Assembly: GCA_025352795.1 (NCBI GenBank)
Contig: JANXSF010000020.1
Span: forward strand, 1-64,000
Length of the DNA: 64,000 nucleotides
Source: Acidobacteriota bacterium
GTDB lineage: Bacteria > Acidobacteriota > Terriglobia > Bryobacterales > Bryobacteraceae
Direction of reading: 5' to 3'
Positions 2,328 to 5,659 of the stretch are shown here, piece by piece. The position numbers and the translations under genes are program-made. Position 1 is the stretch's first letter, and each line of letters opens with the position of its first letter. The notes under the pieces were generated by a model that had not been told where the DNA came from, searched no databases, and saw nothing but the letters and a program-made list of their open reading frames with translations.

Positions 2328-2756
2328 ATGTTCTTTCGCCGAGCCACCCCGCGCACACTTTCCTTTGACGAACGAGTAGACGCGGCCAGCAGTTATGGAT
2401 TTGAGACAACCAAGACCCCATCGGGTGCACGAATCAGTCGTAAAGGGTTTGGATGCTGGGTGAAAGAAGGTCCTGGTGGCGTTCCTGAACCTGGCGAGCC
2501 TGGTTTATTGCTTGGGGAACACATTGCAGGCTTGGTCGATGGCGGTTATCAGAAGTTCTTCACCACTCACGACAATCACAAAATTGCAGCTTTGGCGGAA
2601 CATCTTACGGCGATCCATGCGTTTCAAGAAGACTTGTACGAGGCTCTTGGACTGACCAGTTTATATAACACTTCCTTAGGTTCGGTCTGCAAGAACCATC
2701 TGTATGACCGGGTGAAGGATCGGGATCAAGGCGTTCCTAAGCGACCCTGGGAATAG
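2328..2756 (+). CDS. Conserved hypothetical protein
   Basis: This is a 142-residue soluble protein that I cannot assign to a named family. The ATG at 2328 is preferred because AAGAGA sits just upstream; an in-frame GTG at 2307 would add seven residues (MAIIKRI). The N-terminal half is basic (FFRRATPR, SRKGFGCWVKEG) and the middle has a Gly/Pro turn region (GGVPEPGEPG). The C-terminal half looks helical and ends in KRPWE. There is no signal peptide or membrane segment. It converges with the ArsC-family gene, leaving only six bases between the two stop codons. Codon use matches the neighbours. Confidence 0.7.
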   Translation: MFFRRATPRTLSFDERVDAASSYGFETTKTPSGARISRKGFGCWVKEGPGGVPEPGEPGLLLGEHIAGLVDGGYQKFFTTHDNHKIAALAEHLTAIHAFQEDLYEALGLTSLYNTSLGSVCKNHLYDRVKDRDQGVPKRPWE

Positions 2757-2762
2757 TTCAAC

Positions 2763-3107
2763 TCAAAGCCCTTGCAAAGCTTGTTCTTCAAAACCTACAA
2801 AAAGCTTCCTGCCCTTACGAATGGTAGGAGCTCGTAACTTTCCAGTAGGGCCGATCATCAAAGCCAGCAGTTCCGCATCCGCAGGTCGGCTGGATTTCAA
2901 GTTTACGTGAATGACCTTTTTGCCTTTGGTGGCGTAGAGTTCATCGGCATGGCTGGCCAGTTCCAAAGCTTCGGTGACCCCAAGCTTCTTCTTCCCTGCA
3001 TCCACCTGTTCCACAACTTCAATTTTGTTGTTTGCAAGAAACTCTTGCATTTTGGCGCAAGTGCTTCAACCGCGCCGATGGTAGCTCCAATCTATCTTCG
3101 TATTCAT
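2763..3107 (-). CDS. ArsC-family selenoprotein (UGA decoded as selenocysteine)
   Basis: An ordinary ORF search sees only codons 20-114. Upstream of that ATG the same frame stays open to an ATG at 3107 except for one TGA at 3066-3068. The readthrough N-terminus is MNTKIDWSYHRRG-U-STCAK, so the UGA falls exactly on the first position of a (C/U)xxC redox motif (U14, C17). The rest, including GPTGKLRAPTIRKG near the C-terminus, matches the thioredoxin-fold ArsC-like family in which both Cys and Sec members are known (annotated elsewhere as ArsC family (seleno)protein). The full length is 114 residues. The ATG lies seven bases after the stop of the upstream 3115-5616 gene, so co-transcription is likely; no strong Shine-Dalgarno is seen. 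The role is probably a thiol/selenol oxidoreductase with unknown substrate; arsenate reduction is not established. It requires SelA, SelB, SelD and tRNA-Sec, none of which are in this window. Confidence 0.82.
3033..3049 (-). promoter_or_regulatory. Candidate bacterial SECIS hairpin
   Basis: On the minus strand, TGCAAG (3049-3044) and CTTGCA (3038-3033) form a perfect six-pair stem around the five-base loop AGTTT. The stem begins 16 bases after the UGA and the apical loop begins 22 bases after it. As I recall the bacterial SECIS consensus, it needs a small apical loop with a G in one of its first two positions, about 16-37 bases from the UGA; here G is the second loop base. The stem lacks the bulged U of E. 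coli fdhF, which varies among bacteria. This would be the SelB-binding site. Confidence 0.6.
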
Positions 3108-3114
3108 GTTTTAA

Positions 3115-5616
3115 CTATTGCACCCGCACCAGCATCAAGCCGGTCTGTTTCCGATCTGCCCCGTAAGTTACCGCTTCAATAGTGTTCGATTTGGCGTTGA
3201 AATTCTGTAAAACGGGCGTTTGGACTGCACCAGGTGTTCCCGGACCGCCCGCTGGGGCTTGAGCCGGTACGGTTCCCACAAATGCGACACCCGGAGGGTT
3301 GTCAATAATGCGAAGATCACCGGTTACCAGATCGTAAATCAAATAATTGGTTCCGGCGTTGTTGGCCTTGGTGCCACGGGCAATTAACTTGCGTGTATCT
3401 GGAAAGACGCTGGCAATGGTGACTGTGGCGAAGCCTTCGGGCGTGGGCATAAGGCGTGAAGAGGCGAGTTCCAAATCAAAATAAACAATCCCCGCATCGC
3501 CGTTCACGCGGTTGGTGGCTAAGCCTACCACTGCGTTGAGTTGGAGAATTGAGCTGAGATTGGTGAATGTTTGCACATCGGGCGGTAGGTCGAACCGGAA
3601 GGAAGAATTGGTGACGCCATCGAAGACATACAAGGTATCGGAACGGTTGGCAGTGGCCACGTTGGCACCGTAGACGTAATCGTTCAATTCACTTTCATTG
3701 TTGCCGGTGGCATTGAACGATCCTGATCCAGGCAATGTGACTACGGCAGCTTCCTGGGTGTTCCAATCAAACGTTGCAAAGCCTTGTGCCGGACAGGGAT
3801 TCTTAATGGCAATTTCAGAACTGGATGCAGTAGAAAGGGCAATGCGCCGTGACAAATCCAGTTGAAATACTCTCAATTGGGCAGCACAGACGGCAAAGAA
3901 AGTCTTTTCCGGCAAGGGCTGAACCTTAGCGATTCCCTGGCCCACTGGAAAGGAAACAAATCCATGAGCTGAACCATCAGTTGTTCCTGAAATCACAACA
4001 TAGCTTCGGGAAGTTGCGTCCAGCACAGCCACTGCTCGAAACCTGGCTAAAGGATTTACAATGCCACCGGGAAGTCCTGGAATGCCACCACCACCGGGCC
4101 CTCCACCGCCGCCAGGGGCTGCTGGCTGCACTGCTGGAATAAGAGGCACATAGCCGCTGGGGAAATCGCGTGTAGCCTGGACCTTGCCGGTTGCATCCAC
4201 AATTGCCAATTTCGCTTTGGTGGGTTTCTCGGCGTTATCGGCCACCAGCACGCCGTATGTTCCTGCGGCAAAGGCAAATGGCGTGGCGATGGTTTCTTTA
4301 ATGCCGTCACCCAAGTCAATCACAGCCGTGAGCAAGGCAACCGGAATTCCACCTGCACCCCCGCCGCCGCCGAACCCACCGCCGCCGAACCCACCGCCGC
4401 CAGCCCCACCAATGACCACCGCTCCGCCATCCTTCAATTCCCCAGTTTCCGGATCGAGTGTCTTTGCAGAAGGGGGAGTGCCGCCAATGATCACAGAAAA
4501 CTCACCGCGTCCGGCGGAACCAATCAGCGCCGCAGTTGCCGGTAAATCCACCGACATAGCCAATTTTGCAGGATTGTACAACGCCAATTTATTTGAGACA
4601 CCAGTAGACGCATCGGCTGCCGGAGGTCCTACAAACGCTGCCAAAGCATTGCCTTCATTCGCTGCCGTAAATGGCGATGCCTGGTTGCGATTTGCCGTTG
4701 TCAGGCAACTATCAATCTTGTTCCAAATTTTGTTGGCAACATCGGCGACAAAGGAAGGGTAACAACCATCGTCGGCCCGGGCTGCAGCCAAGCCTAAGTA
4801 TCCGGGACGCAAGTCGCTAGATGTGAAACCGCGTAAATCTGGTGTGCCAGTAGGAATGGCAAGATAGCTCACCGATGGTTCGGAAATGCGTTGATACAGG
4901 GTGCGGTTGGCCGTGTTGTTGGCAATTTGCAGCGTGATCACATCGCCGGGTAGCGCAGTTGCTGGCAGGTCTACAGCCACGTCAAATTCTCCGACGCGAT
5001 CAGTTGATGCAGTCACCCTCACATCGGCTAAAGCGCCTCCAACCAATGCTCTTGCCGCACCACGGGGCGCGGCCAGCGTATCTTTAGGACCAGCAGTGCC
5101 GGTAGGAACATTGGGAGTAACTGGACCCAAGCCGCTGGCCCGCATCAGAATCGTATTCCCGCTGGTAGACATATCGGCGGCACCGTAGCCTGCGTCATCA
5201 GCAGTCTTCACGCTGGAAAATATGTTGACGACGTTGAATCGCACTGGACGACTCTGCACATCCCCACGCTTCACAATTAAGGTCACCTGACCATTGGTCA
5301 CTTCATACGGAACCTGGGCAACAATTTTGCTGGGACTGGCGGAGTAAATTGGCGCTAGCCGATTGTTGATCATCACCTGAATCGCCGGATCGCCTATGGA
5401 CGTGGGCCAGGGCGTATCCGTGGCCGTTACCGTGTCAACCGGACCCAGATTCAATCCCTTAATCCAAATCAATCCCCCGGATGCAACGGTTGTGGGCGCA
5501 GGTGCCTGGGTGAACGCGTTGATCACACCCCGTGGGCTGACCACCGGACCGTTGGGTGCCTGTCCCCAAACATTGGTGACACAAATTATCCCAAGGACTA
5601 ACTGGAATTTACTCAT
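3115..5616 (-). CDS. Secreted protein with N-terminal Solibacter-type (TIGR03437-like) domain and beta-propeller-like body
   Basis: This is a predicted exported protein of 833 residues. The start at 5616 gives a signal peptide (MSKFQLVLGIICVTNVWGQ); an ATG nine codons further upstream would spoil it. Residues about 30-260 resemble the Solibacter domain, with PSKIVAQVPYEV and ASGLGPVTP turns. Here the domain lies at the N-terminus rather than at the usual C-terminus. The remainder has repeated beta strands of the kind found in propellers. Two very glycine-rich linkers interrupt it, encoded at about 4345-4415 and 4055-4125. The function is unknown. It diverges from the MFS gene with only 43 bases between starts, and the selenoprotein follows it seven bases after its stop. 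Confidence 0.75.
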   Translation of the reverse strand: MSKFQLVLGIICVTNVWGQAPNGPVVSPRGVINAFTQAPAPTTVASGGLIWIKGLNLGPVDTVTATDTPWPTSIGDPAIQVMINNRLAPIYSASPSKIVAQVPYEVTNGQVTLIVKRGDVQSRPVRFNVVNIFSSVKTADDAGYGAADMSTSGNTILMRASGLGPVTPNVPTGTAGPKDTLAAPRGAARALVGGALADVRVTASTDRVGEFDVAVDLPATALPGDVITLQIANNTANRTLYQRISEPSVSYLAIPTGTPDLRGFTSSDLRPGYLGLAAARADDGCYPSFVADVANKIWNKIDSCLTTANRNQASPFTAANEGNALAAFVGPPAADASTGVSNKLALYNPAKLAMSVDLPATAALIGSAGRGEFSVIIGGTPPSAKTLDPETGELKDGGAVVIGGAGGGGFGGGGFGGGGGAGGIPVALLTAVIDLGDGIKETIATPFAFAAGTYGVLVADNAEKPTKAKLAIVDATGKVQATRDFPSGYVPLIPAVQPAAPGGGGGPGGGGIPGLPGGIVNPLARFRAVAVLDATSRSYVVISGTTDGSAHGFVSFPVGQGIAKVQPLPEKTFFAVCAAQLRVFQLDLSRRIALSTASSSEIAIKNPCPAQGFATFDWNTQEAAVVTLPGSGSFNATGNNESELNDYVYGANVATANRSDTLYVFDGVTNSSFRFDLPPDVQTFTNLSSILQLNAVVGLATNRVNGDAGIVYFDLELASSRLMPTPEGFATVTIASVFPDTRKLIARGTKANNAGTNYLIYDLVTGDLRIIDNPPGVAFVGTVPAQAPAGGPGTPGAVQTPVLQNFNAKSNTIEAVTYGADRKQTGLMLVRVQ

Positions 5617-5659
5617 AACTCGGTATAACACAATTGCCGTCATGAAGTTGCGAGGTACA

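Follow-up and report, generated by a model that had tools for sequence, protein, structure and literature searches.

Arsenate reductase-type selenoproteins were first found in marine metagenomes with a UxxS motif (PMC1088965) and later, again in marine metagenomes, with both UxxS and UxxC motifs (PMC2398784). "ArsC-like" selenoproteins have also been obtained from bacterial genomes (PMC1794560), and an arsenate reductase-like UxxC family is listed in a review (PMC9312934). "Arsenate reductase 2" (cd03032) of the Global Ocean Sampling data is, going by its table description, likewise an ArsC-superfamily protein with UxxC (PMC2398784). The family NF041106 is listed as "Arsenate reductase-like protein, UxxC" in a 2026 review (PMC13188914), the only source to name it in a full-text literature search. 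The gene considered here, on the minus strand of the window (the whole stretch of DNA analysed, 64,000 nucleotides), is almost certainly a real selenoprotein gene of this family. Compared with NF041106 as that review presents it, the likeness lies in a match over residues 5-110 of 114 and in Sec at the first position of UxxC. Nothing essential differs; the window gene has a Met20 paired with a two-sided change of the lowest SECIS base pair.

The frame of the gene runs on the minus strand from an ATG at 3107-3105 through a TGA at 3068-3066 (codon 14) to a terminal TGA at 2765-2763. The first-pass annotation had described a frame open to an ATG save for one TGA, placed on the first position of a UxxC motif (HRRG-U-STC), and translation of the minus strand confirms this, the TGA at 3068-3066 being the sole internal stop. 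Reading that TGA as Sec gives a product of 114 residues in which Sec is number 14: MNTKIDWSYHRRG-U-STCAKMQEFLANN... The same annotation had expected gene callers to truncate the gene; indeed, in the standard ORF list the gene starts no earlier than the ATG at 3050 (Met20) and is reduced to a 95-aa fragment. The parts of the gene are as follows.

2763 to 3107, minus strand: complete coding sequence, stop codon included, of an ArsC/Spx-like selenoprotein (translation with TGA as U; NF041106 match; AlphaFold2 model).
3066 to 3068, minus strand: in-frame UGA, codon 14, read as selenocysteine (among 97 aligned genes, 85 have UGA here and the other 12 Cys).
3057 to 3059, minus strand: resolving Cys17 of UxxC, invariant in 50 of 50 alignment rows.
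3048 to 3050, minus strand: internal ATG, Met20, the apparent start of the 95-aa fragment (standard ORF list).
2826 to 2834, minus strand: Arg92-Ala93-Pro94 (LRAP motif), invariant in 50 of 50 rows; its Spx counterpart, by profile alignment to Spx chains, is Arg-Arg-Pro.

Upstream on the same strand lies an 842-aa frame (3115-5643), and the selenoprotein gene starts 7 bases past its end; a plus-strand frame ending at 2756 converges with the gene from the other side. Inspection of the sequence ahead of the ATG revealed no clear Shine-Dalgarno motif. The likelihood of such a read-through arrangement by chance was gauged over both strands of the whole window, the last 300 bases per strand being left out, with a TGA counted as readable when at least 8 aa from a start codon precede it and at least 60 aa follow it. 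Among 2108 TGA triplets, 83 were readable, and 6 of these 83 had a Cys at +3 or -3. Only one of the six is accompanied by a SECIS-like hairpin of at least 6 bp, namely the selenoprotein gene itself (7 bp); in the remaining five the hairpin measures 1 to 5 bp.

The NCBIfam model NF041106, "ArsC family (seleno)protein", matches the product with 140 bits over residues 5-110 of 114, above the NCBI curated cut-off of 85. Given that this cut-off is passed and that the family is listed in the 2026 review (PMC13188914), the gene is a well-supported added member of a known family. The first-pass label "ArsC-family" holds at the superfamily level, as the Pfam ArsC model also exceeds its cut-off (27.1 bits, cut-off 24); the precise family is NF041106, and arsenate reduction is not indicated. 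The Spx/MgsR model TIGR01617 reaches 31.8 bits, below the NCBI cut-off of 75.05. Within the bacterial class, NF041106 is over its cut-off in 17 of 299 genomes, the window's included. All 17 matches contain exactly one TGA, in every case at the column of codon 14, and D6, W7, Y9, H10, and R11, which lie ahead of the UGA, are invariant in these genes.

A wider scan of bacterial and archaeal genomes yielded at least 573 confirmed relatives; these were ordered by how closely they resemble the window protein, and the best 80 were retained. The Sec column holds TGA in 68 of these 80 and a Cys codon in 12, a ratio that is no census because the loci were picked by similarity to the window protein. The scan relied on two patterns, one containing TQEFL and the other LRAP (all 80 kept loci match LRAP); both lie downstream of the Sec codon and so do not select for it. 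Over the 97 aligned genes (the 17 of the class and the best 80 of at least 573) the column thus reads UGA in 85, Cys in 12, and no other residue, in keeping with the first-pass expectation of Cys or Sec among homologues at position 14. Within the 97 rows, L025/L070 and L027/L063 share identical hairpin stretches and tree rows and are therefore near-copies of the same genes. By record titles and taxonomy, the listed loci are labelled Acidobacteriota, Planctomycetota, Rokuibacteriota, Methylomirabilota, and Nitrospinota, and further Gemmatimonadota, Tectimicrobiota, Pseudomonadota, Actinomycetota, and Melainabacteria/Cyanobacteriota, although most come from metagenome assemblies and their taxon labels may err. 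In viral contigs the patterns matched 13 times, in no case at a true relative, and plasmids gave no match at E 1e-5. On a tree of the relatives, built from 96 columns with the Sec and hairpin columns excluded and with many forks left open, the Cys label needs 5 changes, 2 of them forced by well-supported branches (among the best 80 of at least 573 scanned).

Several related sequences deserve mention in their own right. A second ArsC/Spx-like group in the same bacterial class (L042-L054, 13 loci) has U in 3 and C in 8 at the equivalent place, L050 and L053 having been dropped as not read in the right frame; it scores 33.9-40.2 bits against NF041106, under the cut-off of 85, and its flanking motif is roughly U/C-T-T-C-R-K-A. 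The window's genome also holds, on another contig, a second and distant family relative with no internal stop (G000:C27:22821-23108, 22.8 bits). Finally, in one of the 85 Sec genes (L106, region 2476-2481, third codon after the UGA), which lies outside the 50-row alignment, an Arg (CGC) replaces the resolving Cys, which could point to a monoselenol form or to a sequencing error.

The AlphaFold2 model, made from 50 sequences, has a mean pLDDT of 91.2 and a pTM of 0.82, and it predicts that the product is a thioredoxin-fold protein of the ArsC/Spx superfamily with Sec14-x-x-Cys17 at the start of helix 1. Structural matches are moderate (Z near 8-9), and a family's absence from the structure search is no evidence against it; the best is the ArsC-related protein 3gkx (Z 9.2, rmsd 2.5, 87 aligned), followed by Spx 3gfk (Z 8.8, rmsd 2.8, 86 aligned) and YffB 1rw1 (Z 8.6, rmsd 2.5, 84 aligned), with NrdH-redoxin 1h75 (Z 7.5) and the arsenate reductases 3rdw (Z 7.5) and 1sk0 (Z 6.2) lower down. 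Spx and the YffB/ArsC-related proteins resemble the product in predicted fold, the Spx CxxC aligning with UxxC, at 16-22% identity in the structural alignments.

ArsC enzymes hold arsenate through an Arg directly before the active-site Pro. In the family considered here, all 50 rows have Ala93 directly before Pro94, and the alignment to Spx chains places this Ala opposite the second Arg of the Spx Arg-Arg-Pro. This would speak against a selenium-dependent arsenate reductase with true ArsC activity. Spx chains, moreover, outscore arsenate reductases both by sequence and by structure. Neighboring genes were also considered, by clustering frames of at least 90 aa in 80 relative loci (the best 80 of at least 573) and the window, many loci ending at contig ends. 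The largest cluster (19 loci) is the selenoprotein gene itself, and the two that follow in size (13 and 9 loci) have examples that overlap it on the opposite strand. Beyond these three, no cluster exceeds 8 of 81, so that the 81 loci reveal no widely conserved gene partner that would hint at a substrate, and hence no sign of an ars operon. Arsenate reduction is thus an unlikely function, despite the Pfam ArsC score, the arsenate reductase chains among the structural matches (3rdw and 1sk0), and the name "arsenate reductase-like" that the family bears in the 2026 review (PMC13188914).

The protein might instead be taken for an Spx/MgsR-type transcription regulator that senses redox state. The best solved relatives in the sequence profile search are Spx chains (E 3e-07), and Foldseek ranks 1-7 are Spx chains too (rank 5, 3l78, is named Spx in the profile search). 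Further, Spx works through a CxxC switch. However, the product falls far under the TIGR01617 cut-off, and it carries Arg-Ala-Pro where Spx has Arg-Arg-Pro, which makes a regulator of this type very improbable. The role with most support is that of a selenol/thiol oxidoreductase, which we consider likely. The course that we infer for decoding in the cell and for the redox reaction, electron donor included, is as follows. The UGA at 3068-3066 would be decoded as Sec by Sec-tRNA(UCA), with SelB presumably binding the hairpin at 3049-3033 during decoding. Sec14, as the nucleophile, would then attack an oxidised substrate; the adduct would be resolved by Cys17 to give a selenenylsulfide, which a donor of thioredoxin or thiol type would reduce.

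The bacterial SECIS model of the 2026 review has a loop of 3-9 nt with a G within its first two positions, a stem of 4-16 bp, a distance of 16-37 nt from the UGA, and a minimum free energy of -7.5 kcal/mol or lower (PMC13188914). Just downstream of the selenoprotein UGA, the RNA can form the hairpin UGCAAGA-GUU-UCUUGCA, which has the geometry described there (GUU loop, 7 bp, 23 nt).

3033 to 3049, minus strand: candidate bSECIS hairpin with a 7-bp stem, TGCAAGA/TCTTGCA (comparison, covariation, and synonymous-site bias).
3040 to 3042, minus strand: GUU apical loop of the candidate bSECIS, 23 nt after the UGA (GTT in 80 of the 83 distinct Sec sequences listed).

The energy of the hairpin is borderline with respect to the quoted -7.5 kcal/mol, at -6.6 kcal/mol for 17 nt, -7.4 for 19 nt, and -8.1 in a 51-nt fold. 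Single-sequence folding of the window gives z values of -0.14 (51 nt) and of -1.7 and -2.5 (two 71-nt folds), and an Rfam search of window positions 2600-3300 matched no family. Because single-sequence folding is weak and Rfam is silent over this region, the case for a SECIS rests on comparison.

That comparison sets 85 Sec genes (83 distinct sequences) against 12 Cys genes, drawn from the 17 class-level genes and the best 80 of at least 573. Among the matches listed, 73 of the 83 distinct Sec sequences have all 6 core pairs, as against 0 of the 12 Cys sequences. Likewise, in the 85 Sec genes the longest SECIS-like hairpin in the allowed range has 5 to 8 bp (7 or 8 in 70), against 2 to 6 bp across the 12 Cys genes listed. 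Over the 83 distinct Sec sequences listed, 94.5% of base-pair cells are paired, a value reached in 0 of 500 shuffles and by no slid register; in the 12 Cys sequences listed it is 40.5%, with 116 of 500 shuffles as high, bearing in mind that the relatedness of sequences can lift shuffled comparisons for some measures. An earlier pair count, which took in 57 of the 85 Sec sequences after thinning by hand and left out the off-register L071, L120, and L122, agrees with the count over 83. Changes on both sides occur in 5 of the 7 stem pairs (83 distinct Sec sequences listed). The top pair, for example, is A-U in 61, G-C in 14, and unpaired in 10 of the 85 Sec genes listed, GAG-TTT passing to GGG-TTC as a unit. 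The lowest pair is unpaired in 16 of the 83 Sec sequences listed. In the window gene the Met20 AUG, together with a GCA codon for Ala25 in place of the usual GCG, swaps C-G for U-A at this pair, a single case; the other 84 listed Sec genes have Thr, Ser, or Ala at position 20. The register is lost in five listed Sec genes (L071, L099, L114, L120, and L122), and in L071, L099, and L114 a shifted hairpin with an AGUU loop is possible.

Synonymous sites point in the same direction. Among the matches listed, 77 of 83 Sec sequences use CTT for the hairpin Leu, against 79 of 865 Leu codons further down the same genes (p 2.6e-61), and CTT occurs at the hairpin Leu in 1 of 11 Cys genes listed. Similarly, in the Sec genes listed, Glu is GAG in 70 of 70 cases at the hairpin versus 247 of 473 further down, and Thr is ACG in 57 of 60 versus 171 of 453. 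When codons for the same protein were redrawn at random over the stretch from +10 to +48 after the UGA, the actual stretch proved to fold better than expected in Sec genes (mean z -1.16, n=85) and not in Cys genes (+0.05, n=12), among the matches listed; four later stretches of the Sec genes gave -0.02 to -0.52, one of them mildly negative (-0.52). Collectively, these sequence comparisons support a UGA-linked bacterial SECIS after codon 14.

The same observations bear on the more conventional reading that the UGA is an ordinary stop, the gene being either a pseudogene or one that starts at Met20 and yields a 95-aa protein lacking the active-site residue. Standard ORF calling does produce exactly such a 95-aa ORF. 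Decay, however, would not produce a column in which 85 of 97 genes (the 17 of the class and the best 80 of at least 573), under many phylum labels, have UGA and the other 12 Cys, nor is it compatible with invariant residues ahead of the UGA in the 17 class-level genes or with a hairpin kept at synonymous sites and by covariation. The supposed start at Met20 is moreover peculiar to the window gene among the 85 listed Sec genes. Termination at codon 14 can thus be set aside with little hesitation in favor of a selenoprotein.

Decoding of the UGA as Sec depends upon dedicated machinery, and the first-pass annotation had predicted that the organism must carry selA, selB, selD, and tRNA-Sec. A search of the window's genome (96.6% complete) found all four: selA at 406 bits, selB at 387 bits (cut-off 242), selD at 365 bits, and a tRNA-Sec with anticodon UCA (Rfam match, anticodon by ARAGORN). 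The anticodon was taken from ARAGORN since the Rfam tRNA-Sec score is unspecific alone. The tRNA-Ser(UGA) of the window's genome also passes the Rfam cut-off (47.5 bits), as do control genomes of Caulobacter, Thermus, and Thermotoga that do not pass for selB, so that this score is unsuitable as a sole marker of Sec. The selD gene (L021 1501-2424) has an in-frame TGA of its own (1531-1533), followed after 20 nt by a hairpin of 7 bp with a GGU loop, and looks like a selenoprotein gene itself. That the UGA might be read as some other amino acid, as Trp through a changed code or by a near-cognate suppressor, is hardly credible: readthrough alone would also keep the frame open, but the relatives lacking the UGA have Cys in 12 of 12 cases among the matches listed, not Trp or Arg, the gene's own terminator is TGA, and the full Sec machinery and a SECIS are present.

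Whether the Sec form travels with the machinery was assessed in 36 genomes tested for selB, comprising the 24 Sec genomes that head the list of 68 and all 12 Cys genomes of the best 80 of at least 573. Among the matches listed, selB is over its cut-off in 21 of 24 Sec genomes versus 4 of 12 Cys genomes (Fisher p 0.002). Two of the three Sec genomes without selB have a tRNA-Sec match (77.3 and 67.7 bits), the tRNA-Sec matches in these relatives, as in the control genomes, being Rfam scores; the third, L074, has neither at the thresholds used, perhaps owing to an incomplete assembly. A tRNA-Sec match is present in 6 of 12 Cys genomes and absent in 6 of 12, hence the Cys form is no simple mark of machinery loss. 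Two Cys genomes (L056 and L085) have a tRNA-Sec match without selB over the cut-off, which makes the link between Sec form and selB clear, not strict. Four others (L055, L057, L065, and L110) carry the Cys form although selB is over the cut-off, and the exchange of Sec for Cys thus need not accompany loss of the machinery. Within the class, selB is over the cut-off in 212 of 299 genomes and in 16 of the 17 that carry the gene (G077, 84% complete, is missing among the matches listed). As selB is so common there, co-occurrence in the class is only mildly informative.

The 12 Cys genes provide a further contrast, one that concerns the protein itself. The segment encoded by the hairpin, mostly TQEFLA, has a mean pairwise identity of 0.78 in Sec members versus 0.48 in the 12 Cys genes, the Sec values being taken from random samples of 12 from the 68 scanned Sec genes of the best 80 of at least 573 (lowest of 300 samples, 0.64). 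Elsewhere in the columns compared, Sec and Cys members vary to the same degree (identity 0.43 Sec versus 0.42 Cys), while the Gln-Glu pair stands at 0.81 in Sec and 0.19 in Cys members, both within the same best 80 of at least 573. As a check on bias, given that one scan pattern contains TQEFL, the comparison was redone on the 41 of 68 Sec loci (best 80 of at least 573) not matching that pattern. Gln is kept in 40 of these 41, and identity is 0.70 for the segment and 0.73 for Gln-Glu (Cys Gln-Glu, 0.19). The simplest reading of this contrast is that the motif would be conserved for the RNA. There is accordingly good reason to think that the recoding hairpin has shaped the protein: Thr-Gln-Glu-Phe-Leu-Ala would be kept for the RNA and not for the enzyme, swaps of Sec to Cys (5 label changes on the tree) would have freed hairpin and motif alike, and one near-identical SECIS would serve the gene under at least 8 phylum labels.

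For this gene, standard ORF calling both shortens the protein and loses its active-site residue, and the corrected gene adds one more member to a selenoprotein family. More broadly, the contrast between Sec and Cys members amounts to a natural experiment in which an RNA recoding signal within a gene constrains the protein that it encodes. Caution is warranted in interpreting residues conserved beside Sec, which may not be catalytic.
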